DNA of 64,000 nt. Source: Serripes groenlandicus (taxonomy: Eukaryota > Mollusca > Bivalvia > Cardiida > Cardiidae). Below, in pieces: positions 12,556-42,561 of this stretch (its first letter is position 1; the number at the start of each line of letters is the position of its first letter). The stretch spans positions 57,139,385 to 57,203,384 of the forward strand of contig JASEVX010000007.1 of NCBI GenBank assembly GCA_031761405.1. The letters run 5' to 3'. The notes under the pieces were generated by a model that did not search any database, was not told the origin of the DNA, and saw only the letters and a list, made by a program, of their open reading frames with translations. Position numbers and translations under genes: made by a program.

Positions 12556-12790
12556 TATACGACTCATGATTCCAAGTTAATCTTATATCTTCTATAGACT
12601 CATTTTGTTTTGATGAACTAAAAACCTAGTTGTGTTTAGATAAAATTTACTTAAACAATACATGGTTTATCGTACGACCAACATAATTGTCAAGGTATTT
12701 TTATAATAGCATGCATTTGGCATACACACTTACACGCCTATTGAACCGGTTTAGTCGGGTGGAAAATTTCTATTTGAACACACACGTTAA

Positions 12791-13013
12791 CCCTTTCCCT
12801 CATATACATGTAGACGCTTTCTGACGCCTCTGCAGCAGACGGCTTTTTGAAAACATAGTGACAAAAGAAGAAATTGCACAAAACGTGCAATTCCTCCTTT
12901 TGCCACAATGTTTTCACCTTTTTGTCATAGGTTATCCATTCAATTATGGAGACTTTCTATTTTTTGACAAAATACGTTCAAAGTCGTGCATAATTGTCTT
13001 ATGAGGGAAAGTG
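12791..13013. mobile_element. piggyBac-like MITE (family A), copy 3
   Basis: Ends CCCTTTCCCTCAT and ATGAGGGAAAGTG with TTAA on both sides (12787-12790 and 13014-13017). 223 bp. Confidence 0.85.
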
Positions 13014-14373: not shown

Positions 14374-14382
14374 GGAAAAAAC
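14374..14382. other. 9-bp target duplication, left copy
   Basis: GGAAAAAAC abuts the left terminal sequence of the giant element. The identical 9 bp abuts its right end at 38845-38853. Confidence 0.8.
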
Positions 14383-17300
14383 AGGTGTGTGAAGTTAGCA
14401 CGTAGGTCGTAGCTCGTAGGTCGACACTCAAATTTATTTTCAGAAAGTGTCGACCTGGCGCATAGGTCGTAGGTCGACAGTCAGATTCACATTAAGATAG
14501 TGTTGACCTGGCGCGTAGGTCGTAGGTCGAAAGTCAAACTTATGTTCAGAGAGTGTTGACCTGGCGCGTAGGTCGTAGGTCGAAAGTCAATTTTATGCTC
14601 AGAAAGTGTTGATCTGGCTCGTAGGTCGTAGGTCGACAGTCAAACTTATGTTCAGAAAGTGTTGACCTGGCGCGTAGGTCGTAGGTCGATAGTCAAATTT
14701 ATTTTCAGAAAGTATCGACCTGGCGCGTAGGTCGTAGGTCGACAGTCATATTCACATTAAGATAGTGTTGACCTGGCGCGTAGGTCGTAAGTCGACAGTC
14801 AACATCACATTAAGACAGTGTTGACCTAGCGCGTAGGTCGTAGGTCGACAGTCAGATTCCCATTAAGACAGTGTTGACCTGGCGTGTAGGTCGTAGGTCG
14901 ACAGTCAAACTTATGTTCAGAAAGTGTTGACCTAGCGCTTAGGTCGTAGGTCGACAGTCAAATTTATTTTCAGAAAGTGTCGACCTGGCGCGTAGATCGT
15001 AGGTCGACAGTCAGATTCACATTTAGATAGTGTTGACCTGGCGAGTAGGTCGTAAGTCGACAGTCAGAATCCCATTAAGACAGTGTTGACCTGGCGCGTA
15101 GGTCGTAGGTCGACAGTCAAATTTATTTTCAGAAAGTGTCGATCTGGCGCGTAGGTCGTAGGTCGACAGTCAGATTCACATTAAGATTGTGTTGACCTGG
15201 CACGTAGGTCGTAGGTCGACAGTCAAACTTATGTTCAGAGAGTGTTGACCTGGCGCGTAGGTCGTAGGTCGACAGTCAATTTTATGCTCAGAAAGTATTG
15301 ATCTGGCTCGTAGGTCGTAGGTCGACAGTAAAACTTATGTTCAGAGAGTGTTGACCTGGCGCGTAGGTCGTAGGTCGACAGTCAATTTTATGCTCAGAAA
15401 GTGTTGTTCTGGCTCGTAGGTCGTAGGTTGACAGTCAAACTTATGTTCAGAAAGTGTTGACCTGGCGCGTAGGTCGTAGGTCGACAATCAAATTTATTTT
15501 CAGAAAGTGTCGACATGGCGCGTAGGTCGTAGGTCGACAGTCAGATTCCCATAAAGATAGTGTTGACCTGGCGTGTAGGTCGTAAGTCGACAGTCAGAAT
15601 CCCATTAAGACTGTTGACCTGGCCCGTAGGTCGTAGGTCGACAGTCAAATTTATTTTCAGAAAGTGTCGATCTGGCGCGTAGGTTGTAGGTCGACAGTCA
15701 CATTCACATTAAGATAGTGTTGACCTGGCGCGTAGGTCGTAAGTCGACAGTCAAACTTATGTTCAGAAAGTGTTGACCTGGCGCGTAGGTCGGAGGTCGA
15801 CAATCAAATTTATTTTCAGAAAGTGTCGACCGGCGCGTAGGTCGCAGGTCGACAGTCAGATTCACATTACGATAGTGTTGACCTGGCGCGTAGCTCGTAA
15901 GTCTACAGTCAGAATCTCATTAAGACAGTGTTGACCTGGCGCGTAGGTCCTAGGTCGACAGTCAAATTTATTTTCAGAAAGTTTCGACCTGGCGCGTAGG
16001 TAGTAGGTCGACAGTCCGATTCACATTAAGATAGTGTTGACCTAGCGCGTAGGTCGTAAGTCGACAGTCAGAATCCCATTAAGACAGTGTTGACCTGGCG
16101 CGTAGGTCGTAAGTCGACAGTCAAACTTATGTTCAGAAAGTGTTGACCTGGCGCGTAGGTCAAAGGTCGACAGTCAAACTTATGTTCAGAAAGTGTTGAC
16201 CTGGCGCGTAGGTCGTAGGTCGATAGTCAAATTTATTTTCAGAAAGTATCGACCTGGCGCGTAGGTCGTAGGTCGACAGTCATATTCACATTAAGATAGT
16301 GTTGACCTGGCGCGTAGGTCGTAAGTCGACAGTCAACATCACATTAAGACAGTGTTGACCTAGCGCGTAGGTCGTAGGTCGACATTCAGATTCCCATTAA
16401 GACAGTGTTGACCTGGCGTGTAGGTCGTAGGTCGACAGTCAAACTTATGTTCAGAAAGTGTTGACCTAGCGCTTAGGTCGTAGGTCGACAGTCAAATTTA
16501 TTTTCAGAAAGTGTCGACCTGGCGCGTAGATCGTAGGTCGACAGTCAGATTCACATTTAGATAGTGTTGACCTGGCGAGTAGGTCGTAAGTCGACAGTCA
16601 GAATCCCATTAAGACAGTGTTGACCTGGCGCGTAGGTCGTAGGTCGACAGTCAAATTTATTTTCAGAAAGTGTCGATCTGGCGCGTAGGTCGTAGGTCGA
16701 CAGTCAGATTCACATTAAGATTGTGTTGACCTGGCACGTAGGTCGCGACAGTCAAACTTATGTTCAGAGAGTGTTGACCTGGCGCGTAGGTCGTAGGTCG
16801 ACAGTCAATTTTATGCTCAGAAAGTATTGATCTGGCTCGTAGGTCGTAGATCGACAGTAAAACTTATGTTCAGAGAGTGTTGACCTGGCGCGTAGGTCGT
16901 AGGTCGACAGTCAATTTTATGCTCAGAAAGTGTTGTTCTGGCTCGTAGGTCGTAGGTTGACAGTCAAACTTATGTTCAGAAAGTGTTGACCTGGCGCGTA
17001 GGTCGTAGGTCGACAATCAAATTTATTTTCAGAAAGTGTCGACATGGCGCGTAGGTCGTAGGTCGACAGTCAGATTCCCATAAAGATAGTGTTGACCTGG
17101 CGTGTAGGTCGTAAGTCGACAGTCAGAATCCCATTAAGACTGTTGACCTGGCGCGTAGGTCGTAGGTCGACAGTCAAATTTATTTTCAGAAAGTGTCGAT
17201 CTGGCGCGTAGGTTGTAGGTTGACAGTCACATTCACATTAAGATAGTGTTGACCTGGCGCGTAGGTCGTAGGTCGACAGTCAAACTTATGTTCAGAGAGT

Positions 17301-20300
17301 GTTGACCTGGCGCGTAGGTCGTAGCTCGACGGTCAATTTTATGCTCAGAAAGTGTTGATCTGGCTCGTAGGTCGTAGGTCGACAGTCAAACTTATGTTCA
17401 GAAAGTGTTGACCTGGCGCGTAGGTCGTAGGTCGACAGTCAAATTTATTTTCAGAAAGTGTCGACCTGGCGCGTAGGTCGTAGGTCGACAGTCAGATTCA
17501 CATTAAGATAGTGTTGACCTGGCGCGTAGGTCGTAAGTCGACAGTCAGAATCTCATTAAGACAGTGTTGACCTGGCGCTTAGGTCGTAGGTCGACAGTCA
17601 GATTCACATTAAGATAGTGTTAACCTGGCGAGCAGGTCGTAAGTCGACGTCAAACTTATGTTCAGAGAGTGTTGATCTGGCGCGAAGGTTGTAGGTCGAC
17701 ATTCAATTTTATGCTAAGAAAGTGTTGATCTGGCCCGTAGGTCATAGGTCGACAGTCAAACTTATGTTCAGAAAGTGTTGACCTGGCGCGTAGGTCGTAG
17801 GTCGACAGTCAAATTTATTTTCAGAAAGTGTCGACCTGGCGCGTAGGTCGTAGGTCGACAGTCAGATTCACATTAAGATAGTGTTGACCTGGCGCGTAGG
17901 TCGTAAGTCGACAGTCAGAATCCCATTAAGACAGTGTTGACCTGGCGCGTAGGTCGTAGGACGACAGTCAAATTTATGCTCAGAAAGTGTTTATCTGGCT
18001 CGTAGGTCGTAGGTCGATAGTCAAATTTATTTTCAGAAAGTGTTGATCTGGCTCGTAGGTCGTAAGTCGACAGTCAGATTCACATTAAGATAGTGTTGAC
18101 CTGGCGCGTAGGTCGTAAGTCGACAGTCAGAATCTCATTAAGACAGTGTTGACCTGGCGCGTAGGTCGTAGGTCGACAGTCACATTCACATTAAGATAGT
18201 GTTGACCTGGCGCGTAGGTCGTAGGTCGACAGTCAAACTTATGTTCAGAGAGTGTTGATCTGGCGCGTAGGTCGTAGGTCGACAGTTAATGTTATGCTCA
18301 GATAGTGTTGATCTGGCTCGTAAGTCGTAGGTCGACAGTCAAACTTATGTTCAGAAAGTGTTGACCTGGCGCGTAGGTCGTAGGTCGACAGTCAAATTTA
18401 TTTTCAGAAAGTTTCGACCTGGGTCGTAGGTCGAAGTTCGACAGTCAGATTCACATTAAGATAGTGCTGACCTGGCGCGTAGGTGGTAAGTCGACAGTCA
18501 GAATCCCATTAAGACAGTGTTGACCTGGCGCGTAGGTCGTAGGTCGATAGTCAAATTTATTTTCAGAAAGTGTTGATCTGGCGCGTAGGTCGTAGGTCGA
18601 CAGTCAGATTCCCATTACGATAGTGTTGACCTGGCGCGTAGGTCGTAAGTCGACAGTCAAAATCTAATTAAGACAGTGTTGACCTGGCTCGTAGATCGTA
18701 GGTAGACAGTCAGATTCACATTAAGATAGTGTTGACCTGGCGCGTAGGTCGTAGGTCGACAGTCAAACTTATGTTCAGAGAGTGTTGACCTGGCGCGTAG
18801 GTCGTAAGTCGACAGTCAGAATCTCATTAAGACAGTGTTGACCTGGCGCTTAGGTCGTAGGTCGACAGTCAGATTCACATTAAGATAGTGTTGACCTGGC
18901 GAGCAGGTCGTAAGTCGACGTCAAACTTATGTTCAGAGAGTGTTGATCTGGCGCGAAGGTTGTAGGTCGACATTCAATTTTATGCTAAGAAAGTGTTGAT
19001 CTGGCCCGTAGGTCATAGGTCGACAGTCAAACTTATGTTCAGAAAGTGTTGACCTGGCGCGTAGGTCGTAGGTCGACAGTCAAATTTATTTTCAGAAAGT
19101 GTCGACCCGGCGCGTAGGTCGTAGGTCGACACTCAGATTCACATTAAGATAGTGTTGACCTGGCGCGTAGGTCGTAAGTCGACAGTCAGAATCCCATTAA
19201 GACAGTGTTGACCTGGCGCGTAGGTCGTAGGACGACAGTCAAATTTTTGCTCAGAAAGTGTTTATCTGGCTCGTAGGTCGTAGGTCGATAGTCAAATTTA
19301 TTTTCAGAAAGTGTTGATCTGGCTCGTAGGTCGTAAGTCGACAGTCAGATTCACATTAAGATAGTGTTGACCTGGCGCGTAGGTCGTAAGTCGACAGTCA
19401 GAATCTCATTAAGACAGTGTTGACCTGGCGCGTAGGTCGTAGGTCGACAGTCACATTCACATTAAGATAGTGTTGACCTGGCGCGTAGGTCGTAGGTCGA
19501 CAGTCAAACTTATGTTCAGAGAGTGTTGATCTGGCGCGTAGGTCGTAGGTCGACAGTTAATGTTATGCTCAGATAGTGTTGATCTGGCTCGTAGGTCGTA
19601 GGTCGACAGTCAAACTTATGTTCAGAAAGTGTTGACCTGGCGCGTAGGTCGTAGGTCGACAGTCAAATTTATTTTCAGAAAGTTTCGACCTGGGTCGTAG
19701 CTCGAAGTTCGACAGTCAGATTCACATTAAGATAGTGCTGACCTGGCGCGTAGGTGGTAAGTCGACAGTCAGAATCCCATTAAGACAGTGTTGACCTGGC
19801 GCGTAGGTCGTAGGTCGATAGTCAAATTTATTTTCAGAAAGTGTTGATCTGGCGCGTAGGTCGTAGGTCGACAGTCAGATTCCCATTACGATAGTGTTGA
19901 CCTGGCGCGTAGGTCGTAAGTCGACAGTCAAAATCTAATTAAGACAGTGTTGACCTGGCGCGTAGATCGTAGGTAGACAGTCAGATTCACATTAAGATAG
20001 TGTTGACCTGGTGCGTAGGTCGTAGGTCGACAGTCAAACTTATGTTCAGAGAGTGTTGACCTGGCGCGTAGGTCGTAGGTCGACAGTCAATTTTATGCTC
20101 AGAAAGTGTTGATCTGGCTCGTAGGTCGTAGGTCGACAGTCAAACTTATGTTCAGAAAGTGTTAACCTGGCGCGTAGGTCGTAAGTCGATAGTCAAATTT
20201 ATTTTCAGAAAGTGTCGACCTGGCGCGTAGGTCGTAGGTCGACAGTCAAACTTATGTTCAGAAAGTGTTAACCTGGCGCGTAGGTCGTAAGTCGACAGTC

Positions 20301-21685
20301 AAATTTATTTTCAGAAAGTGTCGACCTGGCGCGTAGGTCGTAGGTCGACAGTCATATTCACATTAAGATAGTGTTGACCTGGCGCGTAGGTCGTAAGTCG
20401 ACAGTCAGAAGAATCTCATTAAGACAGTGTTGACCTGGCGCGTAGGTCGTGGGTCGACAGTCAGATTCACATTAAGATAGTGTTGGCCTGGCGCGTAGGT
20501 CGTAGGTCGACAGTCAAACTTATTGACCTGGCGCGTAGGTCGTAGGTCGACAGTCAAATTTATTTTCAGAAAGTGTCGACCTGGCGCGTAGGTCGTAGGT
20601 CGACAGTCAGATTCACATTAAGATAGTGTTGACCTGGCGCGTAGGTCGTAGGTCGACAGTCAAACTTATGTTCAGAAAGTGTTGACCTGGCGCGTAGGTC
20701 GTAGGTCGACAATCAAATTTATTTTCAGAAAGTGTCGACCGGCGCGTAGGTCGTAGGTCGACAGTCAGATTCACATTTAGATAGTGTTGACCTGTCGCGT
20801 AGGTCGTAGGTCGACAGTCAAACTTATGTTCAGAGAGTGTTGACCTGGCGCGTAGGTCGTAGGTCGACAGTCAATTTTATGCTCAGAAAGTGTTGATCTG
20901 GCTCGTAGGTCGTAGGTCGACAGTCAAACTTATGCTCAGAAAGTGTTGACCTGGCGCGTAGGGCGTAGGTCGACAGTCAATTTTATGCTAAGAAAGTGTC
21001 GACCTGGCGCGTAGGTCATAGGTCGACAGTCAAACTTATGTTCAGAAAGTGTTGTCCTGTCGCGTAGGTCGTAGGTCGACAATCAAATTTATTTTCAGAA
21101 AGTGTCGACCTGGCGCGTAGGTCGTAGGTCGACAGTCAAATTTATTTTCAGAAAGTGTCGACCTGGCGCGTAGGTCGTAGGTCGACAGTCAGATTCACAT
21201 TAAGATAGTGTTGATCTGGCGCGTAGGTGGTAAGTCGACAGTCAGAATCCCATTAAGACAGTGTTGACCTGGCGCGTAGGTCGTAGGTCGATAGTCAAAC
21301 TCATGTTCAGAAAGCGTAGATCTACACTCAAACTTATGTTCAGAAAGTGTTGACCTGGCGCTTAGGTCGTAGGTCGACACTCACATTTATTTTCAGAAAG
21401 TGTCGACCTGGCTCGTAGGTCGTAGCTCGAGAGTCACATTTAATTTCATAAAGTGTCAACCTTGCGCGAAGGTCCTAGGTTGACACTCACATGTTCTTCA
21501 GAAAGTGTCGACCAGGCTCGTAGGTCGTAGGTCGACACTCACATTTATTTTCAGAAAGTGTCGACCTGGCTCGTAGGTCGACACTTACATTTATTTTCAA
21601 AAAGTGTCGACCTGGAATGTAGGTCGTAGGTCGACACTCACACTTATGTTCAGACTGTGTCGACCTGGCGCGTAGGTCGTAGGTT
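14383..21685 (+). repeat. 53-bp satellite array A1
   Basis: Roughly 135-140 units of 53 bp, each with a conserved half (GTTGACCTGGCGCGTAGGTC then GTAGGTCGACAGTCA) and a variable half. At least five variable types recur: CAAACTTATGTTCAG, CAAATTTATTTTCAG, CAGATTCACATTAAG, CAGAATCCCATTAAG, CAATTTTATGCTCAG. Each unit has a small inverted repeat, GTCGACCT/AGGTCGAC. Larger duplications are visible: a ~1.53-kb one (14687 versus 16221) and a ~1.27-kb one (17631 versus 18902). ORFs here are by-products of the repeat. Confidence 0.95.
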
Positions 21686-24600
21686 GAGTCTGCCGCGTGT
21701 ATTACGGCGAGCACTCCTGCCTACATGCCATTGTCACGGGTGTGGAACAAAAACAAATTCTCAGGAGTTGAACACCTTTTTTTTTTATCTCACGGGAGTG
21801 GAATAACGGCTTTAAAGCGGATTTCTATCCGAGTCTGCCACGTGTATTACGGGGAGCACTCTGGCCTACAGTCCCTTGTCACGGGAGTGGACCAAAAATA
21901 AATTCTTACAGGAGTTGAACACATACGCTATAAGGCAGGTCCCGCCGTCTACGCGCGCTGACGGCGAAGTGCTGGCCTTGTTTAAGGCAAGCACTCCGCT
22001 GGTAGTATGGTAAATGTGAGCCGTCGTCGCATGTGCTATAAGGCAGGTCCCGCAGTCTATCAGCGCTGCCGGCGAAGTGCTGAGCCTTGTTTCAGGCGAT
22101 TACCCCACTGGTAGTAGGGGAAATATGAGCCGCATATGCTATACGGCAGGTCCCGCCGTACCCGCGCTAACGCCAAGTACTGGGCCTTGCGTTAAGCGAG
22201 CACTCCGCTGCTAGTAGGGGAAATGTGAGCCGGGCCCGCATATAATACAAGGCAGGTCCCGTCTATGATCATTTCACGAAATTAGATAGTCCCGTGTAGA
22301 CTAGTTAGTCCAGTAACGTTGCCTGAGATTTCCCCTACTAGAGACATTTTTTACTTTGACATTGACACTCTCTGGTTCCTTTCCTCGCCTGGGTGGAAGA
22401 CCTTATTGCCATTTGGCGTTAAAGACGCCTCAGGTTGTGAACATTTTACATTCTAATACACCCCCTGCCCCTTCTAATGAATAGTATGACTGCCGTACCC
22501 CTACTTCCACAGTGTTTTGGAGGTATAACTCGTTAGGAATTGTTCCTTTTCAGAATTCGCTCTTAAATGTAAGCGTTCTGAGGGCCACAACAGTTTACCT
22601 TTATTCGTTGTGTCTCTGAAATAAAGTAGATGGTTCTACATCATGTTGACATATCCAATCCAAGTGGTCCCGGTCCTTGCCAGCTCCTGCCACAGCCACA
22701 CAGGGCCTACGCGTCTCTACTTAATTGCCCTTGCCTAAATGCGCTACACCCTACCCTGCCCCCTTCGGACAGTGAATGCTCCGCGTCTTATCGGCTACAC
22801 CAATGCGTCGTCTTAAGAGAGTGGTTGTAACTCCCGCCGTTTACCCGCGCGTTCGGCGAAGTGCTTGCCTCGTTTCTAGGCGGCACTCTGCGTATGGCTG
22901 GGTTAATGTGCGCTGGGGCCGAAGTCGCATTTGCGAACCCGCGTACGCAGCGAATTGCTAGGCCTTGTGTCAAGGGGAGACGTGATGGGCTCATCGGCAG
23001 ATGCTCGAAAGAAGGAAATAAAAATAATAAAAATAAATATTTTTTCCAGACCAACCATCTCCCCTATAAGTACGACCGAACACTTCCCATTGCGTTCCGC
23101 TTTTAGGTTAGACGAAGTGCCGCAGTCTACCCGCGCCGACGTCGAAGTGCTGAGCCTTGTTTGACACTAGCACTCCACTGCTAGTAGGGGAAATGTAAGC
23201 CGGGACCGCGGAACTTTTGTTCTAGAAGACTGACAGCTCGTCAACTCGCCCGATCCGTAGAGTGCGTATGCAGGACGCGTAAGCTATCGCGTTTACGGGT
23301 ACAGCTGATACGGTTTCGGGGAAAAACGCAGTTTCCCTTTTTTTCCTCTTTGTTGCATGCGATTTTTTTCACAATGGAGTGGAACACTTTTTTTTTTTTT
23401 TTCGCACGAGAGCTGACGGCCTCAAGTCGGATTTTTACCCGAATTTCTCGCGTGTATTACGGGCAGAACTCTGTCCTACAAGCCCTTGTCACGGGAGTGG
23501 AACCAAAAATAAATTCACAATGGAGTGGAACACCTTTTTTCTTTTCCTCATGGGAGTGCAACGACGGCCTTAAGTCGGAGTTCTACCCGAGTCTGCTGCG
23601 TAAATTACCGGCATCACTCTGTCTTACAGGCCCTTGGCACGGGGAGTGGAACAAGACAATATTTCACAATGGAGTGGAACACTTTATTTATTTTCTTTAG
23701 ATTAGGGTTAGCCTTCTGTAAGGGGAGCACTCCGCTGCCGGCCCGAAGAAATACGCACCGGGTCCCGCATTCGCGAACACGCGTACGCAGCGAAGTGCTT
23801 GGACTTGTGTCAAGGGAGCACTCCGTTGCTGGCCCGAAGAACTAGGCTCCCGCACTTGCGAACCCGCGTACGCAGCGAAGTGCTAGGCCTTAAGACAGTC
23901 CCGCCGATAACCCGCGCTGACGGCAATGTACTCGTCGTCGTTTTCAGGCAGCACTCTGCGTATGGCTAGGGAAATGTGCGCTGGGGCCGAATTCGCTATA
24001 CGGGAGTCCTAGGTCCCTACCATTAAGAGAGTGGTTGTTACTCCCGCCGGTTACCCGCGCCTACGGCGAAGTGCTCGCCTCTTACTAGGCAGCACTCTAG
24101 GTATGGCTGGGGGAAATGTGCGCTGGGGCCGAAGTCGCTATAAGGAAGCTGACGACCTTAAGTCGGATTTCTACTTTTTTTCTTTTTTTTTCGAACGGGA
24201 GCTGAACAACGGCCTTAAGTCGGATTTCTACCCGAGTCTGTAGCGTACATGACGGGCAGCACTCTGTCCTACAGGAAGTTGAACAAGAAACAATTTCACA
24301 ATGGATTGGAACACATTTTTTTCTTTTTTTCTTTCGCACGGGAGCTGATGTCCTTAAGTCGGATTTCTACCCGAGTCTGCCGCGTAAATAACGGGCAGCA
24401 CTCTGTCGTACAGGCCCTTGTCACGGGGATAAAACAAGAAACAATTTCACAATGGAGTGGAACACCTTTTTTTTCCGCACGGGAGCTGACGGCCGTTAGT
24501 TTGCCGCGTAAATGACGGGCAGCACCATATCCTACAGGACCTTGGCACGGGAGTGGAAAAAAGATTTGTTCACAATGGAGTGGAACACTTTTTGTTTTTT

Positions 24601-24787
24601 TTTCGCTGACGGTATTAAATCGGATTTTTACCCGAGTTTCTCGCGTGTATTACGGGCAACACTCTGTCCTACAGGCCCTTGTCAAGGGAGTGAAACAAAA
24701 AGAAAAATCACAATGGAGTGGAACACTTTTTTTATTTTTCTCATGGGAGTGCAACGACGGCTTTTAGTCGGATTTCTACGCTAGTCA
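21686..24787 (+). other. Core B of the giant element, hairpin modules
   Basis: A GC-rich core with two kinds of module. One is ~115 bp with a hairpin of form AGTGCTnGCCTTG...AAGGCnAGCACT; copies near 21970, 22075, 22180, 22860, 23145, 23785, 23880, 24065. The other is ~170 bp beginning CACAATGGAGTGGAACAC, then a T-run, then 'cgcacgggagctgacggcc' and 'gggcagcactctgtcctaca'. 22260-22640 is single-copy within the core. The reverse complement occupies 32972-36578. ORFs of 60-116 codons here read through repeats and match each other, so I call no protein. Confidence 0.85.
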
Positions 24788-27083
24788 TTATGAACATTAG
24801 TTTGACTGTCGACCTACGACCTACGCACCAAGTCGACACTTTCTGAACATAAATATGACTGTCGATCTACGACCTACGCGCCAGGTCAACACTTTCTGAA
24901 CATAAATTTGACCGTCGACCTACGACCTACGCGCCAGGTCAACACTTTCTGAACAACAGTTTCATTGTCGACCTACGACCTACGAGCCAGGTCAACACTA
25001 TCTTAATGTAAATTTGACTGTCGACCTACGACCTACGCACCAGGTCAACACTATCTTAATGTGAATCTAACTGTCGACCTACGACCTACGAGCCAGATCG
25101 ACACTTTCTGAAAATAAATATGACTGTCGACCTACGACCTACGCGCCAGGTCAACACTATCTTAATGTGAATTTGACTGTCGACCTACGACCTACGAGCC
25201 AGGTCGACACTTTCTGAAAATAAATCTGACTGTCGACCTACGACCTACGCGCCAGGTCAACACTATCTTAATGTTAATTTGACGGTCGACCTACGACCTA
25301 CGCGCCAGGTCAACACTGTCTTAATGCGATTCTGACTGTCGACTTACGACCTACGCGCCAGGTCAACACTTTCTGAACATAAGTTTGACTGTCGACCTAC
25401 GACCTACAAGCCAGAACAACACTTTCTGAGCATAAAATTGACTGTCGACCTACGACCTACGCGCCAGGTCAACACTCTCTGAACATAAGTTTGACTGTCG
25501 ACCTACGACCAACGAGCCAGATCAATACTTTCTGAGCATAAAATTGACTGTCGACCTACGACCTACGCGCCAGGTCAACACTCTCTGAACATAAGTTTGA
25601 CTGTCGACCTACGACCTACGTGCCAGGTCAACACAATCTTAATGTGAATCTGACTGTCGACCTACGACCTACGCGCCAGATCGACACTTTCTGAAAATAA
25701 ATTTGACTGTCGACCTACGACCTACGCGCCAGGTCAACACTGTCTTAATGGGATTCTGTCTGTCGACTTACGACCTCCGCGCCTGGTCAACACTATCTTA
25801 ATGTGAATCTGACTGTCGACCTACGATCTACGCGCCAGGTCGACACTTTCTGAAAATAAATTTGACTGTCGACCTACGACCTACGCGCTAGGTCAACACT
25901 TTCTGAACATAAGTTTGACTGTCGACCTACGACCTACACGCCAGGTCAACACTGTCTTAATGGGATGCTGACTGTCGACCTACGACCTACGTGCCAGGTC
26001 AACACTATCTTAATGTGAATCTGACTGTCGACCTACGACCTACGTGCCAGGTCAACACTATCTTAATGTGAATCTGACTGTCGACCTACGACCTACACGC
26101 CAGGTCGACACTTTCTGAAAATAAATTTGACTGTCGACCTACGACCTACGCGCCAGGTCAACACTTTCTGAACATAAGTTTGACTGTCGACCTACGACCT
26201 ACGCGCTAGGTCAACACTTTCTGAACATAAGTTTGACTGTCGACCTACGACCTACACGCCAGGTCAACACTATCTTAATGTGAATATGACTGTCGACTTA
26301 CGACCTACGTGCCAGGTCAACACTGTCTTAATGTGAATATGAGTGTCGACTTACGACCTACGTGCCAGGTCAACACTGTCTTAATGTGAATATGACTGTC
26401 GACTTACGACCTACGTGCCAGGTCAACACTATCTTAATGTGAATATGACTGTCGACCTACGACCTACGCGCCAGGTCGACACTTTCTGAAAATAAATTTG
26501 ACTGTCGACCTACGACCTACGCGCCAGGTCAACACTTTCTGAACATACCTACGACCTACGCGCCAGATCAACACTCTCTGAACATAAGTTTGACTGTCGA
26601 CCTACGACCTACGCGCCAGGTCAACACTATCTTAATGTGAATCTGACTGTCGACCTACGACCTACGTGCCAGGTCAACACTGTCTTAATGAGATTCTGAC
26701 TGTCGACTTACGACCTACGCGCCAGGTCAACACTATCTTAATGTGAATCTGACTGTCGACCTACGACCTACGCGCCAGGTCGACACATTCTGAAAATAAA
26801 TTTGACTATCGACCTACGACCTACGCGCCAGGTCAACACTTTCTGAACATAAGTTTGACTGTCGACCTACGACCTACGAGCCAGATCAACACTTTCTGAT
26901 CATAAAATTAACTGTCGACCTACGACCTACGCGCCAGGTCAACACTCTCTGAACATAAGTTTGACTGTCGACCTACGACCTACGCGCCAGGTCAACACTA
27001 TCTTAATGTGAATCTAACTGTCGACCAAATAAATTTGAGTGTCGACCTACGAGCTACGACCTACTTGCTAACTTCACACACCT
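24788..27083 (-). repeat. 53-bp satellite array A2, inverse orientation
   Basis: About 43 units reading GACTGTCGACCTACGACCTA, the reverse complement of A1. It ends at 27083 with TGCTAACTTCACACACCT, the element terminus. The base after it begins CACAAATCG, which does not match the outer flank. Confidence 0.95.
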
Positions 27084-27179
27084 CACAAATCGCTACAGGT
27101 AAACATCGGGATCGAATGAATTGTACACACAGTGAGTTCTCAAACGAGTATTATTCATGAGCACACTCTTACCACACTT

Positions 27180-28125
27180 ACTTCAATGTCCGTCTATATG
27201 TGCGTTTGTCGTTCGGGTTAGATACTTAGAAGAGTAGCTTCAGTCCACCCTGTCCGTCTATATGTGCGTTTGTCGTTTGGGTTAGATACTTAGAAGAGTA
27301 GCTACAGTCCACCCTGTCCGTCTATATGTGCGATTGTTGGTTGGGTTATATATTTAGAAGAGTAGCTTCAATCCACCCTGTCCGTCTATATGTGCGATTG
27401 TTGGTTGGGTTAGATATTTAAAAGAGTAGCTTCAGTCCACCATGTCCGTCTATATGTGCGCTTGTCGGTTAAGTTATATACTTAGAAGAGTAGACTTCAG
27501 TCCACTCTGTCCGTCTATATGTGCGCTTGTCGGTTAAGTTAGATACTTAGAAGAGTAGACTTCAGTCCACCCTGTCCGTCTATATGGGCGATGGTCGGTT
27601 GGGTTATATACTTAGAAGAGTAGCTTCAGTCCACCCTGTCCGGCTATATGTGCGATTGTCGGTTGGGTTATATACTTAGAAGAGTAGCTTCAGTCCACCC
27701 TGTCCGTCTATATGTGCGCTTGTCGGTTGGGTTATATACTTAGAAGAGTAGCTTCAGTCCACCCTGTCCGTCTATATGTGCGATTGTTGGTTGGGTTAGA
27801 TATTTAGAAGAGTAGACTTCAGTCCACCCTGTCCGTCTATATGTGCGTTTGTCGGTTGGGTTATATACTTAGAAGAGTAGCTTCAGTCCACCCTGTCCGT
27901 CTATATGTGCGATTGTCGGTTGGGTTAGATATTTAGAAGAGTAGCTTCAGTCCACCCTGTCCGTCTGTATGTGCGCTTGTCGATTGGGTTAGATACAAGT
28001 GTAGAAGAGTAGCTTCAGTCCACCCTGTTCGTCTGTATGTGCACTTGTCGATTGGGTTAGATACAAGTTTAGAAGAGTAGCTTCAGTCCACCCTGTCCGT
28101 CTGTATGTGCGCTTGTCGATTGGAT
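27180..28125 (+). repeat. 64-bp minisatellite, about 15 copies
   Basis: Units of CCCTGTCCGTCTATATGTGC followed by 'gattgtcggttgggttatat' and 'acttagaagagtagcttcag', 64-71 bp each. The later units switch to GTCTGTATGTGC. Confidence 0.95.
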
Positions 28126-28274
28126 TAGTCATATGACTGAAAAATTGTTCAAAATGGCGTTAAACCCCAATCAATCAATCGTTCTCTGCGTTTGTCTAAC
28201 TTCGCACTCGGCTATACAACGACCACGTCACCAGCCGTGCGTTCTATGGAAATTTACGATCATCAGGGCAATTC

Positions 28275-28345
28275 CATCCTCGGTACCCAGGCTATTCATA
28301 AACTATATGATCATATATGTTATGAATAGCCTGGGTACCGAGAAT
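28275..28345. mobile_element. 71-bp palindromic element with 9-bp flanking repeat
   Basis: A perfect 23-bp inverted repeat (28279-28301 and 28320-28342; arm begins CTCGGTACCCAGGCTATT) surrounds an 18-bp loop. GGGCAATTC lies on both sides, at 28266-28274 and 28346-28354. It looks like a tiny element that is almost all inverted end, with a 9-bp target duplication. The transcript would form a strong hairpin. Confidence 0.7.
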
Positions 28346-28519
28346 GGGCAATTCACCCGTATGTGATATCGACGATTTGTTTACCTGTATATGTTATTTA
28401 TTTTAAAATTTAAATATGTTGTATTTTGACGACGAACCATATTTGTTCAAGTCATTATTCATGAATACATTTCAGTTCTGTTCTTTTTATTATGGCAAAA
28501 CAAACTGTCACTCGTTTAA

Positions 28520-28736
28520 CCTTTACCCACATATCGACGCTTCCCGGTACCTGTGCAGTAGAAGGCTTCGGGAAACATTGGGACAAATGGAGAAATTGCT
28601 CATGATGAACACTTTTTTTATATTTCGAGTCCAGCTCTGTTCCATAATTATACTTTCATTTATGTAGATTTTTTCATATTTTGGCATGACGGTTTTTAAG
28701 ATCGTCTACTGCTGATTTATTGCATGCGGGGAAGGG
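28520..28736. mobile_element. piggyBac-like MITE (family A), copy 4
   Basis: TTAA on both sides (28516-28519, 28737-28740). The left end CCTTTACCCACAT is diverged from the right end, ATGCGGGGAAGGG. Confidence 0.75.
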
Positions 28737-28896
28737 TTAAACATTTGTAATATGATTTGTCGCATTGTATGCAAAGACATTGATGACAATTGAGATTTGG
28801 CAACCGGATGTAAAACGTAAAAACTAACAAAGCTGCGTATATTGAATAATGGCATGTAAACTCATCTTGACACATCTGCAGCAGGATACGTTTTAA

Positions 28897-29143
28897 CCCT
28901 TTCCCTCATATAGACGCTTTTTGACGCCTCTGCAGCAGACGACCTTTTGAAAACATAGTGACAAAAGAAGAAATTGCTCAAAACGAGCAATTTCTCCTTT
29001 TGCCACAATGTCTTCCACTTTAAGTCCTATGTTATCCATTCAGTTATCCATTCAGTTATTGAGATTTTCCAGTTTTTGACAAAATATGTTCAAAGTCGTT
29101 CAAAGTCGTCTGCTGCAGAATTGTGAATTTGTGAGGGAAAGGG
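28897..29143. mobile_element. piggyBac-like MITE (family A), copy 5
   Basis: CCCTTTCCCTCAT to GTGAGGGAAAGGG with TTAA at 28893-28896 and 29144-29147. The inside carries small tandem duplications ('ttatccattcag' and 'gttcaaagtc'). The right TTAA is also the left TTAA of the next element. Confidence 0.85.
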
Positions 29144-29147
29144 TTAA

Positions 29148-29352
29148 CTCTTTCAGCGCCAAAGGCAATATTGTGGTTTTTGCAAACAATACAGATTCAG
29201 GTGAGTCAGCTCGTACCGAGCTATCTCACCTGAAATCAGCATTGTTTGCCTTTTATTAATCAAAATAGTCCAACACTTTTATTAAATGAGATTGGAGACG
29301 CCCGATTTTGAACATGGAAGAGTCTACTTTAAACAATTCGGCGCTGAAAGAG
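29148..29352. mobile_element. MITE family D, TTAA-flanked
   Basis: Ends CTCTTTCAGCGCC and GGCGCTGAAAGAG with TTAA on both sides (29144-29147 and 29353-29356). 205 bp. A related piece is at 44567-44750. Confidence 0.85.
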
Positions 29353-30618
29353 TTAAGGCGAGACAGCTCGGTATGACTCCGCTGAATCTGTATTATTTGC
29401 AAACATCTACAATAGACATTATTACATACCTGTGGTAACAAACGCCCGACGCCTTTGTTAGTCTGGATGGCAGGTTGACATCTTATTAATCAAGAGCTTC
29501 TATTCAACAAATGTAACCCAAGTCGTACCTATGTGCACATATAATCAAAGGACGTACACGTAGATGTGTTTCTATAAAAGGAAAATATCAACTGGGTGTC
29601 ACTTACATCCAACCGTGTATGTTGTTGACGAAAGTAGTAACAAGTTTGATGAAAATACATGGACATGACATCTATAGTAATATGTACCATTGAACAAAAG
29701 TCATAATCAGGTTAGTAAAATTGAATGATACTTACATCAAAAGTCTCATTGTGGCTACGTTATGATTTCTGATACAATTAAAAAAATGGAACTTATTACA
29801 GACTGAAATCTTGAATCAAGCAGTTTTACTAAACAATTGAAGCCATAATCTCACCTCAGTGCACATGACGTACATGAAGGTGTATTCCTTGAGAAAGAAA
29901 ATATAAACTGCGTGTCACTTACCACCAACTGTGTATACATAATTTCACGAAAGTAATAATAAGTAGATGAAATTGAATGAACAATACAGATAGATAGATA
30001 TATATTGTATTCAGGAACAAGGGAAAGTTTGACCAACATACCACATACACATAACACTTAAGTATTAACAGAGTCAAATAGCAGACTAATTGCAAAAAAT
30101 AAAAGGTAAAAGGAAAAAAAATAGATGTATGGAAACAATCTAGAACATGTATATATTTCCTAGTGGAACTGGTATTTAACGGTCCATCATATTCCGATCT
30201 CATTTAAACCTTACATTTAAGGTTCGCTGTAGCTTCAAATATTTGCTTAGATCTGATAAATGCGTACTGAAGGTCGTCTTGGATTGACATTTGCGGCAGC
30301 CAATCAAATAATCTCCTACAAATGCGTTAGGTATCAACAGTGGGGTGATAAACCGTATACATAACATAGATACAGAAACTAAGATGATCGAGTGTTACAA
30401 CCGTTGTTAAAGCAGAACCGAAAGTTGTTTGTATGGTGCCTTTTCATTTGACGGAAAAACGAGCACCTGCTGATGATGAATTAGCGTCAATTAGAGACGA
30501 CTTTTTATTCGGTGTCGTCAGGTCAAACACGCGTTCAGCGATTTATATTGGTCTGGTTTCAATGAGATTGATACCATCTGTACGTGTTTGTCCAGGGGCG
30601 TAGCTTGGCAAAAATCAA

Positions 30619-30850
30619 TGTGTAGGCCGTCTCGTGAGAAAATTACATCGTGGACTCGGCATAAAGTATCGACCTGGATCAGCCTAAGCATACCACACAG
30701 GCGCACCCGGATATACACTTTTCGTCTACTGTGGGTTTTCTGTTTCAGGAATCACTACTCTATCTATCCCCCCTTAGACGGAATGTGTCGGCCGGATCAG
30801 TCTGCGCGGACATCTCAGGCTGATCTGGTGATACATTACGCAGATGTCTA
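30619..30850. mobile_element. MITE family C, copy 2
   Basis: GATCAGCCTAAGCATACC, 'cacttttcgtctactg' and TCCCCCCTTAGACGGAATGT match the interior of the copies at 12293 and 60972. The ends are diverged. The overlapping plus-strand ORF (30588-31028) is MITE sequence. Confidence 0.75.
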
Positions 30851-31204
30851 TCGCCGCAGCTGCATTGTTAAAAAACACATCAGACGCGTATGCTATTCAT
30901 TTAGTTACTGCATCTGGTATTCAATGCGGTTTTCATTAAAAAGTTCAAGTCAATCAGTAAGTTCAAGTTTTTTCTGTTTTAGTCTCAAAATGAGACATAT
31001 GAAATTAACAATATCATGTGCAAACTAATCAAATACATGTATATAGTATGTCACGTGCAAGAGGATGGAGAGATTTGTAGACTTAAAGTTTTATTTTGAT
31101 TTGAATTTAGCCATCATGTAATAAACTATTCAATTAAGTGAACTCCCTATAACTCGAAGTAGAAAGGTACCCTCAAATTACATCGAGTTATTGACATGTT
31201 CGAG

Positions 31205-32971
31205 AGGTGTGTGAAGTTAGCACATAGGTCGTAGCTCGTAGGTCGACAGTCAAATCTATTTTAAGAAAGTGTCCACCTGGCGCGTAGGTCGTAGGTCGAC
31301 AGTCAGATTCACATTAAGATAGTGTTGACCTGGCGCGTAGGTCGTAGGTCGACAGTCAAATTTATTTTCAGAGAGTGTTGATCTGGCTCGTAGGTCGTAG
31401 GTCGACAGTCAGATTCACATTAAGATAGTGTTGACCTGGCGCGTAGGTCGTAGGTCGACAGTCAGATTTATTTTTAGAAAGTGTCGACCTGGCGCGTAGG
31501 TCGTAGATCGACAGTCAGATTCACATTAAGATAGTGTTGACCTGGCGCGTAGGTCGTAGGTCGACAGTCACATTTCCATTAAGATAGTGTTGACCTGGCG
31601 CGTAGGTCGTAGGTCGACAGTCACATTTCCATTAAGATAGTGTTGACCTGGCGCGTAGGTCGTAGGTCGACAGTCAATTTTATGCTCAGAAAGTGTTGAT
31701 CTGGCTCGTAGGTCGTAGGTCGACAGTCAAACTTATGTTCAGAAAGTGTTGACCTGGCGCGTAGGTCGTAAGTCGACAGTCAAATTTATTTTCAGAAAGT
31801 GTCGACCTGGCGCGTAGGTCGTAGGTCGACAGTCAGATTCACATTAAGATAGTGTTGATCTTTGCGCGTAGGTCGTAAGTCGACAGTCAGAATCCCATTA
31901 AGACAGTGTTGACCTGGCGCGTAGGTCGTAGGTCTACAGTCAGATTCACATTAAGATAGTGTTGACCTGGCGTGTAGGTCGTAGGTCGACAGTCAAACTT
32001 ATGTTCAGAGAGTGTTGACCTGGCGCGTATGTCGTAGGTCGACAGCCAATTTTATGCTCAGAAAGTGTTGATAGTGTTGATCTTGCTCGTAGGTCGTAGG
32101 TCGACAGTCAAACTTATGTTCAGAAAGTGTTGACCTGGCGCGTAGGTCGTAGGTCGACAGTCAAATTTATTTTCAGAAAGTGTCGACCTTGCGCGTAGGT
32201 CGTAGGTCGAATGTCAGATTCACATTAAGATAGTGTTGACCTGGCGCGTAGGTTGTAAGTCGAATGTCAGAATCCCATTAAGACAGTGTTGACCTGGCGC
32301 GTAGGTCGTAGGTCGACAGTCAGATTCACAATAAGATAGTGTTGACCTGGCGCGTAGGTCGTAGGTCGACAGTCAGAATTACATTAAGATAGTGTTGATC
32401 TGGCGCGTAGGTCGTAGGTCGACAGTCAGAATTACATTAAGATAGTGTTGATCTGGCGCGTAGGTCGTAGGTCGACAGTCAGAATTACATTAAGATAGTG
32501 TTGATCTGGCGCGTAGGTCGTAGTTCGACAGTCAATCTGATGTTCAGAAAGTGTTGATCTGGCGCGTAGGTCGTAGGTCGACACTCACATTTATTTTCAG
32601 AAAGTGTCGACCTGGCTCGTAGGTCGTAGGTCGACAGTCATATTTATTTTCAGAAAGTGTCGACCTAGCTCGTAGGTCGTAGGTCAACAGTCAAACTTAT
32701 GTTCAGAAAGTGTCGACCTGGCGCGTAGGTCGTAGGTCGACACTCAAATTTATGTTCAGAAAGTGTTGACCTGACGCGTAGGTCGTATGTCGACACTCAC
32801 ATTTATTTTCAGAAAGTGTCGACCTGGCTCGTAGGTCGTAGGTCGACAGTCAAATTTACATAAAGATAGTGTCGACCTGGCGCGTAGGTCGTAGGTCGAC
32901 ACTGAAATTTATGTTCAGAAAGTGTTGACCTGGCTTGTAGGTCGTAGGTCGACAGTCAAACTAATGTTCAT
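31205..32971 (+). repeat. 53-bp satellite array A3
   Basis: Starts with the terminus AGGTGTGTGAAGTTAGCAC. About 33 units follow, in A1 orientation. It ends in 'gtcaaactaatgttcata', the mirror of the B/A2 junction at 24788. Confidence 0.95.
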
Positions 32972-35900
32972 AAAGACTCGAGTAGAAATCCGACTAAATC
33001 GTTTCACTCCCTTGACAAGGGCCTGTAGGACAGAGTGCTGCCCGTAATACACGCGAGAAACTCGGTTAAAAATCCGACTAAAGACCGTCAGCTCCCGTGC
33101 GAAAAAATAAAAAAAAGTGTTCCACTCCATTGTGAACAATTATTTTTTTCCACTCCCGTGCCAAGGTCCTGTAGGACAGGGTGCTGCCCGTCATTTACTC
33201 GGCAGACTAAAGGCCGTCAGCTCCCGTGCGAAAAAAAAAAGTGTTCCACTCCATTGTGAAATGGTTTCTTGTTTCATTCCCGTGACAAGGGCCTGTACGA
33301 CAGAGTGCTGCCCGTTATTTACGCGGCAGACTCGAGTAAGAATCCGACTAAAGACCGTCAGCTCCCGTGCGAAAAAATAAAAAAAAGTGTTCCACTCCAT
33401 TGTGAACAATTTTCTTTTTCCACTCCCGTGCCAAGGTCCTGAAGGACAGGGTGCCCGTCATTTACGCGGCAGACTAAAGGCCGTCAGCTCCCGTGCGAAA
33501 AAAAAAAGTGTTCCACTCCATTGTGAAATTGTTTCTTGTTTCTTTCCGTGACAAGGGCCTGTACGACAGAGTGCTGCCCGTTATTTACGCGGCAGACTCG
33601 GGTAGAAATCCGACTTAAGGACGTCAGCTCCCGTGCGAAAAAAAAAAAAAAAAATGTGTTCCACTCCATTGTTTATTGTTCCACTTCCGTGCCTGTAGGC
33701 CGAGCACTGTCTGGGCGGTTTTACTTCCCGCTACAGACTCGGGTTGAAATCCGACTTAAGGCCGTCAGCTCCCTTATAGCGACTTCGGCCCCAGCGCACA
33801 TTTCCCCAGCCATACCCAGAGTGCTGCCTAGAAAGAGGCGAGCACTTCGCCGTACGCGCGGGTAACCGGCGGGAGTAACAACCACTCTCTTAAGGGTAGG
33901 GACCTAGGACTCCCGTATAGCGAATTCGGCCCCAGCGCACATTTCCCTAGCCATACACAGAGTGCTGCATGAAAACGACGGCGAGTACTTCGCCGTCAGC
34001 GCGGGTTATCGGCGGGACTGTCACAAGGCCTAGCACTTCGCTGCGAACGCGGGTTCGCATGTGCGGGAGCCTGCGCCTAGTTCTTCGGACCAGTAGCGGA
34101 GTGCTCCCCTGACACAATGCCTAGCACTTCGCTGCGTACCAGTGTTCGCGAATGCGGGGCCCGTCGCGTATTTCTTCGGGCCATCAGCGGAGTGCTCCCT
34201 TGACACAAGGCCAAGCACTTCGCTGCGTAATCGTGTTCGCGAATGCAGGACCCGGCGCCTTTTTCTTCGGGCCGGCAGCGGAGTGCTCCCCTTACAAAAG
34301 GCTAACCCTAATCTAAAGAAAATAAATAAAGTGTTCCACTCCATTGTGAAATATTGTCTTGTTCCACTCCCCGTGCCAAGGGCCTGTAAGACAGAGTGCT
34401 ACCGGTAATTTACGCAGCAGACTCGGGTAGAACTCCGACTTAAGGCCGTCGTTGCACTCCCATGAGGAAAAGAAAAAAAGTGTTCCACTCCATTGTGAAT
34501 TTATTTTTGGTTCCACTCCCGTGATAAGGGCCTGTCGGACAGAATGCTGTCCGTCATCCACGACTTAAGGCCGTTGTTGCACTTCCGTGTGAAAAACAAA
34601 ACAACAAGTGTTCCACTCCATTGTGAATTTTTTTTTGTTCCACTCCCGTGACAAGGGCCTGTAGGACAGAGTACTGCCCTTAATACACGCGAGAAATTCG
34701 GGTAAAAATCCGACTTGAGGCCGTCAGCTCCCGTGAAAAAAAAAAAAATGTGTTCCACTCCATTGTGAAAAATCACATGCAACAAAGATGGAAATCGGGA
34801 AACTGCGTTTTTCCCCGAAACCGTATCAGCTGTACCCGTAAAGGCGATAGCTTACGCGTCCTGCATACGCACTCTACGGATCGGGCGAGTTGACGAGCTG
34901 TCAGTCTTCTAGAACAAAAGTTTCGCGGTCCCGGCTTACATTTCCCCTACTAGCAGTGGAGTGCTAGTGTCAAACAAGGCTCAGCCGTTCGCCGTCGGCG
35001 CGGGTAGACTGCGGCACTTTGTCTAACCTAAAAGCGGAACGCAATGGGAAGTGTTCGGTCGCACTTATAGGGGAGATGGTTGGTCTGGACAAAATATTAA
35101 TTTTTATTATTTTTATTTCCTTCTTTCGAGCCTCTGCCGGGGAGCCCATCACGTATCCCCTTGACACAATGCCTAGCAATTCGCTGCGTACGCGGGTTCG
35201 CAAATGCGACTTCGGCCCCAGCGCACATTTACCCAGCCATACGCAGAGTGCTGCCTAGAAACGAGGCGAGCACTTCGCCGTACGCGCGGGTAAACGGCAG
35301 GAGTTACAATCACTCTCTTAAGACGACGCCTTGGTGTAGCTGATAAGACGCGGATCATTCACTGTAGGGTAGGGTGTAGCGAATTTCGGCAAGGGCAATT
35401 AAGTAGAGACTTGTAGGCCCTGTGTGGTTGTGGCAGGAGCTGGCAAGGACCGGGACCACTTGGATTGGATATGTCAACATGATGTAGAACCATCTACCTT
35501 AAATCAGAGACACAACGAGTAAAGGCAAACTGTTGTGGCCCTCAGAACGCTTACATTTAAGAGCGAATTCTGAAAAGGAACAATTCCTAAGGAGTTATAC
35601 CTCCAAAACACTGTGGAAGTAGGGGTACGGCAGTCATACTACTCATTAGAAGAGGCAGGGGGTGTATTAGAATGTAAAATGTTCACAACCTGAGGCGTCT
35701 TTAACGCCAAATGGCAATAAGGTCTTCCACCCAGGCGAGGAAAGGAACCAGAGAGAGTCAATGTCAAAGTAAAAAATGTCTCTAGTAGGGGAAATCTCAG
35801 GCAACGTTACTGGACTAACTAGTCTACACGGGACTATATAATTCCGTGAAATGATCATAGACGGGACCTGCCTTGTATTATATGCGGGCCCGGCTCACAT

Positions 35901-36578
35901 TTCCCCTACTAGCAGCGGAGTGCTCGCTTAACACAAGGCCCAGTACTTGGCGTTAGCGCGGGTACGGCGGGACCTGCCGTATAGCATATGCAGCTCATAT
36001 TTCCCCTACTACCAGTGGGGTAATCGCCTGAAACAAGGCTCAGCACTTCGCTGGCAGCGCTGGTAGACTGCGGGACCTGCCTTATAGCACATGCGGCCCC
36101 GGCTCACATTTACCATACTACCAGCGGAGTGCTTGCCTTAAACAAGGCCAGCACTTCGCCGTCAGCGCGGATAGACGGCGGGACCTGCCTTATAGCGTAT
36201 GTGTTCAACTCCTGTAAGAATTTATTTTTGGTCTAATCCCGTGACAAGGGACTGTAGGCCAGAGTGCTCCCCGTAATACACGTGGCACACTCGGGTAGAA
36301 ATTCGCCTTAAGGCCGTTATTCCACTCCCGTGAGAAATACAAAAAAAGTGTTCCACTCTTTTGTGAAATGTTTATTGTTCCACTCCAAGGGCCTGTAGGC
36401 CAGAGTGCTCCCCGTAAGACACACGGCAGACTCGGATAGAAATCCGCTTTAAGGCCGTTATTCAACTCCCGTGAGATAAAAAAAAGAAGGTGTTCCACTC
36501 CTGAGAATTTGTTTTTGTTCCACACCCGTGACAATGGCATGTAGGCAGGAGTGTTCGCCGTAATACACGCGGCAGACT
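32972..36578 (-). other. Core B', inverse copy of core B
   Basis: Reverse complement of 21686-24787, with extra ~170-bp modules in 33000-33670. Both junctions are shared with core B: the GAGTCTGCCGCGTGTATTAC end is at the satellite A4 side. The single-copy piece of B corresponds to about 35480-35870. No coding gene called. Confidence 0.9.
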
Positions 36579-38844
36579 TGACCTACGACCTACGCGCCAG
36601 GTCGACACAGTCTGAACATAAGTGTGAGTGTCGACCTACGACCTACATACCAGGTCGACACTTTTTGAAAATATATGTAAGTGTCGACCTACGACCTACG
36701 AGCCAGGTCGACACTTTCTGAAAATAAATGTGAGTGTCGACCTAAGACATACGAGCCAGGTCGACACTTTCTGAAGAACATGTGAGTGTCAACCTAGGAC
36801 GTTCACGCCAGGTCGACACTTTCTGAAAATAAATTTGACTGTCGACCTACGACCTACGCGCCAGGTCAACACTATCTTAATGTGAATCTGACTGTCGACC
36901 TAAGACCTACGCGCCAGGTCGACACTTTCTGAAAATAAATTTGACTGTCGACCTACGACCTACGCGCCATGTCAATACTTTCTGAACATAAGTTTGACTG
37001 TCGACCTACGACCTACGAGCCAGATCAACACTCTCTGAAAATAAGTTTGACTGTCGACCTACGACCTACGCGCCAGGTCAACACTATCTTAATGTGAATC
37101 TGACTGTCGACCTAAGACCTACGCGCCAGGTGGACACTTTCTTAAAATAAATTTGACTGTCGACCTACGACCTACGCGCCATGTCAACACTTTCTGAACA
37201 TAAGTTTGACTGTCGACCTACGACCTACGAGCCAGATCAACACTCTCTGAAAATAAGTTTGACTGTCGACCTACGACCTACGCGCCAGGTCAACACTATC
37301 TCAATGTGAATCTGACTGTCGACCTATGACTTACGCGCCAGCTCAACACTGTCTTAATGGTATTCTGACTGTCGACTTACGACCTACGTGCCAGGTCAAC
37401 ACTATCTTAATGTGAATCTGACTGTCGACCTACGACCTACGAGCCAGATCAACACTCTCTTAATGGGATTCTTACTGTCGAGTTACGACCTACGCGCCAG
37501 ATCAACACTCTCTGCAAAAAAATCTGACTGTCGACCTACGACCTAATCGCCAGGTCAACACTATCCTAATGTGAATCTGACTGTCGACCTACGACTTACG
37601 CGCCAGGTCAACACTGTCTTAATGGGATTCTGACTGTCGACCTACGACCTACGCGCCAGATCAACACTATCTTAATGTGAATCTGACTGTCGACCTACGA
37701 CCTACGCGCCAGGTCGACACTTTCTGAAAATAAATTATAGTGTCGACCTACGACCTATGGGCCAGATCAACACTTTCTGAGCATAAAATTGACTGTCAAC
37801 CTTCGACCTACGCGCCAGGTCAACACTCTCTGAACATGAATTTGACTGTCGACCTACGACCTACGCGCCAGGTCAACACTATCTTAATGTGAATCTGACT
37901 GTCGACCTACGACCTACGAGCCAGATCAACACTCTCTGAAAATAAATCTGACTGTCGACTTACGACCTACGCGCCAGGTCAACACTATCTTAATGTTAAT
38001 CTGACTGTCGACCTACGACCTACGAGCCAGGTCAACACTGTCTTAATGGGATTCTGACTGTCGACCTACGACCTACGCGCCAGGTCGACACTTTCTGAAA
38101 ATCAATTTGACTGTCGACCTACGACCTACGCGCCAGGTCGACACTTTCTGAAAATAAATTTGACTGTCGACCTACGACCTACGCGCCAGGTCAACACTAT
38201 CTTAATGTGAATCTGACTGTCTACCTACGACATACGCGCCAGGTCGACACTTTCTGAAAATCAATTTGACTGTCGACCTACGACCTACGCGCCAGGTCAA
38301 CACTCTCTGAAAATAAGTTTGACTGTCGACCTACGACCTACGCGCCAGGTCAACACTATCTTAATGTGAATCTGACTGTCGACGTACGACCTACGCGCCA
38401 GGTCGACACTTTCTGAAAATCAATTTGACTGTCGACCTACGACCTACGCGCCAGGTCGACACTTTCTGAAAATCAATTTGACTGTCGACCTACGACCTAC
38501 GCGCCAGGTCGACACTTTCTGAAAATCAATTTGACTGTCGACCTACGACCTACGCGCCAGGTCGACACTTTCTGAAAATAAATTTGACTGTCGACCTACG
38601 ACCTACGCGCCAGGTCAACACTCTCTGAAAATAGGTTTGACTGTCGACCTACGACCTACGCGCCAGGTCAACACTATCTTAATGTGAATCTGACTGTCGA
38701 CCTACGACCTACGCGCCAGGTCAACACTGTCTTAATCGGATTCTGACTGTCGACCTACGACCTACGCGCCAGGTCGACACTTTCTGAAAATAAATTTGAC
38801 TGTCGACCTACGAGCTACGACCTACGTGCTAACTTCACACACCT
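36579..38844 (-). repeat. 53-bp satellite array A4, inverse orientation
   Basis: About 43 units reading GACTGTCGACCTACGACCTA, ending GTGCTAACTTCACACACCT at 38844. Much shorter than its mirror partner A1, though the junction with the core is the same. Confidence 0.95.
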
Positions 38845-38853
38845 GGAAAAAAC
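38845..38853. other. 9-bp target duplication, right copy
   Basis: GGAAAAAAC directly follows the right terminus and is identical to 14374-14382. Confidence 0.8.
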
Positions 38854-41634: not shown

Positions 41635-41635
41635 G

Positions 41636-42545: not shown

Positions 42546-42561
42546 TTGTATAATACATGTA

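Follow-up and report, generated by a model that had tools for sequence, protein, structure and literature searches.

Two complete foldback elements with satellite arms around host-like DNA, a probable composite transposon in the bivalve Serripes groenlandicus

The locus described here lies in a 64-kb window (the whole stretch of DNA analysed, which is without any N) of the genome of the bivalve Serripes groenlandicus (assembly GCA_031761405.1, contig JASEVX010000007.1, positions 57,139,385 to 57,203,384), and all coordinates below are those of the window. When the window was searched with the 19-bp terminus AGGTGTGTGAAGTTAGCAC, with up to four substitutions permitted, four sites were found: on the plus strand at 14383 and at 31205, and on the minus strand ending at 27083 and at 38844. 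A sequence-only reading of this DNA had described a single 24.5-kb foldback element with two inverted arms of 12.7 and 7.6 kb around a structured core, directly flanked by a 9-bp duplication. The two lengths were right, but the four terminus sites mean that each of the supposed arms is a complete foldback element with its own centre. These elements, E1 (14383-27083, plus strand, 12,701 bp) and E2 (31205-38844, minus strand, 7,640 bp, inverted relative to E1), both have two inverted termini and inverted satellite arms, and they enclose, in opposite orientation, 4.1 kb of host-like DNA. The segment that had been taken for the core (27084-31204) is a separate, AT-richer piece which shares repeats with the host flanks.

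The same layout was found in E1 and E2: from one end a 53-bp satellite leads to a GC-rich centre, and beyond it the satellite continues in inverted form to the other end. In E1 the outer (left) arm, in which the 53-bp satellite has CGTAGGT heptamer subunits, occupies 14408-21684 (plus strand, 140 anchor sites), the centre with repeated modules of about 100-150 bp occupies 21685-24800 (plus strand), and the inner arm with the inverted satellite occupies 24801-27026 (minus strand, 43 anchors). The corresponding parts of E2 are the inner arm at 31230-32958 (plus strand, 33 anchors), the GC-rich centre at 32959-36579 (minus strand) and the outer arm with the inverted satellite at 36580-38819 (minus strand, 43 anchors). 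Satellite spacings of 46 and 60 occur beside 53, which suggests that 7 bases were gained or lost; the heptamer occurs in one- and two-copy runs within the arrays. For a higher-order repeat in the arms, the identities at lags 1-12 gave no clear period; this is a weak test, since only monomers with a following 53-bp step were kept (89 of the 140 anchors in the E1 outer arm, 32 of 43 in the E1 inner arm, 25 of 33 in the E2 inner arm and 36 of 43 in the E2 outer arm). Tandem Repeats Finder (TRF) reported a three-unit period of 159 bp in the E1 inner arm and a period of 158 bp at 21339-21684.

An alignment of the two centres in inverted orientation has 3,024 aligned positions, of which 2,863 match and 161 do not (94.7% identity, a difference of 5.3%), besides 689 gap columns. 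Because the centres align in this way, E2 is related to E1 in inverted form, and its outer satellite arm is much the shorter of the two. Within the centres, at 21922-24784 and 33001-36523, modules of about 100-150 bp carry T-rich runs after GGAGTGGAACAC. The GC content is 0.479 in E1 and 0.487 in E2, and it is 0.348 and 0.356 in the flanks. No match to the flanks was obtained for E2, for the E1 centre or for the whole of E1 at the setting where the segment between the elements does match them. Eight open reading frames (ORFs) from both centres gave no Pfam match above the cut-off. Exact searches of viral_contigs with two 23-base queries, one from the terminus and one from the satellite, and of genome_contigs with a 29-base satellite query, returned zero matches, which says little because these are viral or prokaryotic collections.

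The outer ends read AGGTGTGTGAAG and CTTCACACACCT, are inverted with respect to each other, and each touches one copy of the 9-mer GGAAAAAAC. The mirrored 19-bp terminus of the earlier reading holds, and the identity between the outer terminus of E1 (14383-14426, plus strand) and that of E2 (38801-38844, minus strand) in fact extends over 44 bp. In the inner terminus of E1 (27065-27083, minus strand) C is replaced by A at position 19; that of E2 (31205-31223, plus strand) does not differ from the outer termini in its 19 bp and has A instead of G at position 20. Single changes in the inner ends against intact outer ends fit the use of the intact pair. Position 45 of the ends is C in both ends of E1 and G in both ends of E2, and at this one site it would set E1 and E2 apart as units.

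The segment between the elements, hereafter the passenger (27084-31204, 4,121 bp), has a GC content of 0.39, or 0.372 when its tandem array is left out, and is thus AT-rich like the flanks. Eleven aligned pieces at about eight distinct places, with E values up to 1e-5, match it to the flanks, for example at 2289-2481, 12303-12521, 12787-12987, 44562-44740 and 61029-61208. Pfam was run on 10 of its 39 ORFs of at least 40 amino acids and gave nothing above the cut-off, the sole match, to PF20281, staying below it (E 0.084; 12.8 bits, where 25 are required). From its composition, the dispersed repeats it has in common with the flanks and these scans, the passenger is most readily taken as ordinary host DNA; on the ORF scans, E1 and E2 are presumably non-autonomous. 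A 64-bp tandem array of 14.5 copies lies in the passenger at 27187-28128 and is followed by a tail ending in GGCGTTAAACCCCAATCAATCAATC (27187-28160 overall); this tail may resemble those of bivalve short interspersed nuclear elements (SINEs) or Helitron-like repeats. The passenger also contains an inverted repeat at 28274-28347 that is 92% self-complementary (feature 28266-28354). It is bracketed by a 9-bp direct repeat, GGGCAATTC, which starts at 28266 and 28346 and has only these two copies on the plus strand, and the feature is perhaps a tiny miniature inverted-repeat transposable element (MITE) of about 71 bp, which would likewise duplicate 9 bp of its target.

The window contains exactly two plus-strand copies of GGAAAAAAC, at 14374-14382 and 38845-38853, and none of its reverse complement. 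The two copies match exactly and abut the mirrored outermost termini to the base, as a left and a right copy of a target-site duplication. When pairs of 9-mers were drawn at random from the flanks, 6 of 200,000 pairs were identical, so that a chance match at two preset places is unlikely; the chance of identity is about 3e-5 per pair of ends, and by arithmetic about 2e-4 when all six pairs among the four termini are allowed. The right flank continues with an A, the base with which the element also starts, and one could therefore describe a direct repeat of 10 bp; the mirroring common to all four termini favours a duplication of 9 bp. When the left and right flanks were joined by one copy of GGAAAAAAC and used as a query, all matches lay at their own places except for two short pieces at a distance from the junction, and no paralogous empty site is therefore present within the window.

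The 9 bases next to each end were compared. The flanks of E1 itself agree at 3 of 9 positions, those of E2 itself at 1 of 9 and the inner pair at 1 of 9; the outer pair agrees at 9 of 9, so that a matching 9-bp repeat adjoins the two outermost ends and not the inner ones. E1 and E2 have the long terminal inverted repeats of short tandem units by which foldbacks are recognised, but the duplication of 8-10 bp expected beside each single copy is lacking, and a 9-bp duplication surrounds the composite. They are thus foldbacks by structure whose own insertion marks are absent at this locus. Two complete foldback copies around host DNA, with a target duplication at the outermost ends only, is the arrangement of a composite transposon, and the one duplication that surrounds all three parts suggests a joint jump. 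The locus is probably a composite foldback transposon (macrotransposon) that moved jointly through its outermost ends. The difference of 5.3% between E1 and E2, set against the perfect duplication, fits an old pair with a later joint jump. The direct repeat at the outer sides proposed by the sequence-only reading is real, and its foldback-type ends of tandem units, its 9-bp duplication and its 24.5-kb unit of transposition all fit the sequence; what did not survive is the single 24.5-kb foldback element. That reading had also named copies with no flanking 9-bp duplication as evidence against itself. Taken singly, E1 and E2 are literally such copies, and the composite reading accounts for them.

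From the observed anatomy and flank pattern we infer a course of events that would include a trans-acting transposase and an excision. E1 and E2 would first have been inserted independently at a donor site, about 4.1 kb apart, with the predicted donor duplications CACAAATCG and ATGTTCGAG, respectively, as their flanks. A transposase that makes 9-bp duplications, most likely of the Mutator/foldback type, would have acted in trans from elsewhere, bringing together the left end of E1 and the right end of E2 and ignoring both inner ends. Since the four ends are nearly identical and each element has both of them, the outermost pair would be a valid substrate in any orientation. The whole unit of 24,462 bp would then have been excised and inserted here, with duplication of GGAAAAAAC. 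The 9-bp duplication around the composite lies within the 8-11 bp given for Mutator-like elements (MULEs) (PMC6446971), a trait that is not unique to MULEs. A placement in the Mutator group would be based on the duplication length and the foldback form, and the foldback form can arise in other superfamilies too.

Several points weigh against joint movement. The case for it rests on one 9-bp match, and GGAAAAAAC is of low complexity, with eight flank sites within one mismatch of it, although none is exact. No transposase was found among the scanned ORFs of the passenger and the centres. Over 100 bp the outer ends are the most alike pair of ends (98 of 100), which also fits a history as the ends of one element; this likeness is nevertheless expected, because E1 and E2 are inverted and both outer ends are the same (left) element end. 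Furthermore, a gap repair that copied in a foldback-passenger-foldback piece would leave the same outer duplication. In such ectopic gap repair a single foldback would have been inserted here, and a later break in it filled by a foldback-host-foldback copy from elsewhere while the old outer flanks were kept. It predicts a matching outer duplication and unmatched inner flanks, and the likeness of the outer ends agrees with it. However, it still needs a donor locus with the order foldback-passenger-foldback and a replacement step in addition, and position 45 pairs the outer with the inner end within E1 and within E2, not outer with outer (one site). We regard gap repair as rather unlikely.

Alternative transposition with re-replication, in the style of maize Ac/fAc, would have the reversed inner ends of two nearby copies move in S phase, after which both copies and parts of their flanks would be re-replicated and the broken ends joined inside the passenger. 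The maize products are formally alike, being transposon copies with flanking DNA and an 8-bp duplication, and some are solo insertions (PMC4270019). No join was recognised inside the passenger, though one sequence cannot show joins and the test is weak, and the window has no long near-identical duplication between the left and right flanks (longest match 438 bp, 83%). A missing neighbouring duplication does not exclude re-replication, since maize solo insertions lack one and larger ones would lie outside the window. The mechanism is unlikely here. A giant 24.5-kb foldback family, in which E1, the passenger and E2 recur as fixed parts, would explain the outer 9-bp duplication and the long inverted homology; it conflicts with the complete termini on both sides of the passenger, with the host-like composition and repeats of the passenger, and with the lack of recognised coding capacity in the scanned ORFs, and is very improbable. 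Finally, two unrelated foldbacks could have been wrongly joined in the assembly, or the 9-bp match could be a coincidence. Long inverted satellite arrays are hard to assemble and the 9-mer is simple in sequence, but the repeat abuts both outermost ends exactly, a chance match has the low expectation given above, and the window has no N, which leaves an artefact or chance match very improbable. Inversion by ectopic recombination was rejected, as comparisons of exchanged duplications gave only 3 of 9 and 2 of 9 matches.

Foldback elements of Drosophila melanogaster make 9-bp duplications. The maize Ac element is a member of the hAT superfamily, and it is not known to have foldback arms or satellites. 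A close parallel to the composite reading is the Ising transposing element (TE) of D. melanogaster, in which segments of hundreds of kilobases were mobilised between foldback transposons, so that host DNA is carried as a unit between foldbacks in both cases (PMC6431247). Whereas the Ising TE was cytologically visible at that size (PMC6431247), the unit here is 24.5 kb and was read base by base, and it has 53-bp satellite arms and no recognised passenger gene. In maize Ac macrotransposons and composite insertions, too, the ends of two copies are used jointly and the duplication lies around the whole, but the duplication is of 8 bp and Ac has distinct 5' and 3' ends (PMC4270019, PMC9910405); one Ac macrotransposon was excised and left a modified 8-bp duplication (PMC9910405).

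Other known elements share single traits with the locus. Tetris of Drosophila virilis is a foldback without conserved ORFs, with tandem-repeat arms and duplications of 8-10 bp, and its arm repeats gave rise to satellite DNA; it differs in its arm repeats of about 220 bp, and the word 'composite' does not occur in the main text of that report (PMC4079207). The Tm1 Mutator/foldback elements of root-knot nematodes mostly make 9-bp duplications and have tandem-motif arms, but their motifs are of about 14 bp, one described copy has 1,080 bp and one group has a putative transposase (PMC3169594). KolobokP, which is bivalve-rich, is composite-like in that its flanking units have their own inverted ends, and differs by direct-repeat units of about 450 or 660 bp, a TTAA target, and a transposase and an endonuclease in its interior (PMC9587614). 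With its TTAA target and long terminal direct repeats KolobokP was ruled out, as the target here is GGAAAAAAC and E1 and E2 are inverted. Galileo of Drosophila buzzatii, a P element whose foldback form lies outside Mutator, likewise has foldback-like copy pairs in opposite orientation, but there the duplications were exchanged by inversion (PMC2775673), whereas the exchange comparisons here fail as stated. MULEs have been recorded in molluscs (PMC6446971), and a survey found them across all the mollusc genomes analysed (PMC10294476). No composite foldback in a mollusc was named in the titles and abstract openings of a partial view of the open-access literature, which is no proof of absence.

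Scans for Rfam families (gathering scores) and for tRNA genes in the window were empty. Of eight ORFs scanned with Pfam, one in the right flank at 51856-52401 (plus strand) matches the sodium:neurotransmitter symporter family (PF00209, E 9e-30) in the family's first part and is probably a host exon. At 48108-50364 (minus strand) several adjacent ORFs are perhaps a broken mobile-element gene; one of them resembles DUF7869 below the threshold (PF25273, E 0.00056). The left flank has local repeated segments of about 1.2 kb at 1133-4618, 87-91% alike, adjoined by a 159-bp minisatellite at 1-793, and minisatellites also occur in the right flank at 41635-42552 (periods of 109/50 bp) and 53262-53990 (periods of 61/70/141 bp).

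The published composite transposons of eukaryotes that were located are known chiefly from Drosophila and maize genetics (PMC6431247, PMC4270019, PMC9910405). At the present locus the composite logic is legible from a single sequence, in four ends, one duplication and two copies that are seemingly older than the jump, and the satellite-armed version of this known kind of composite transposon is new. Paired foldback elements could in this way carry host DNA around an animal genome. It may tentatively be proposed, with some doubt, that satellite-armed foldbacks are a general vehicle, in which any two copies a few kilobases apart could pair their outermost ends and carry the intervening host DNA. 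If this were true, satellites, host segments and transposon ends would spread together, and new satellite arrays would be founded where they land. Foldback pairs whose outer flanks match and whose inner flanks do not would be a simple genome-wide test of how often foldbacks in animals carry host DNA and spread satellites.

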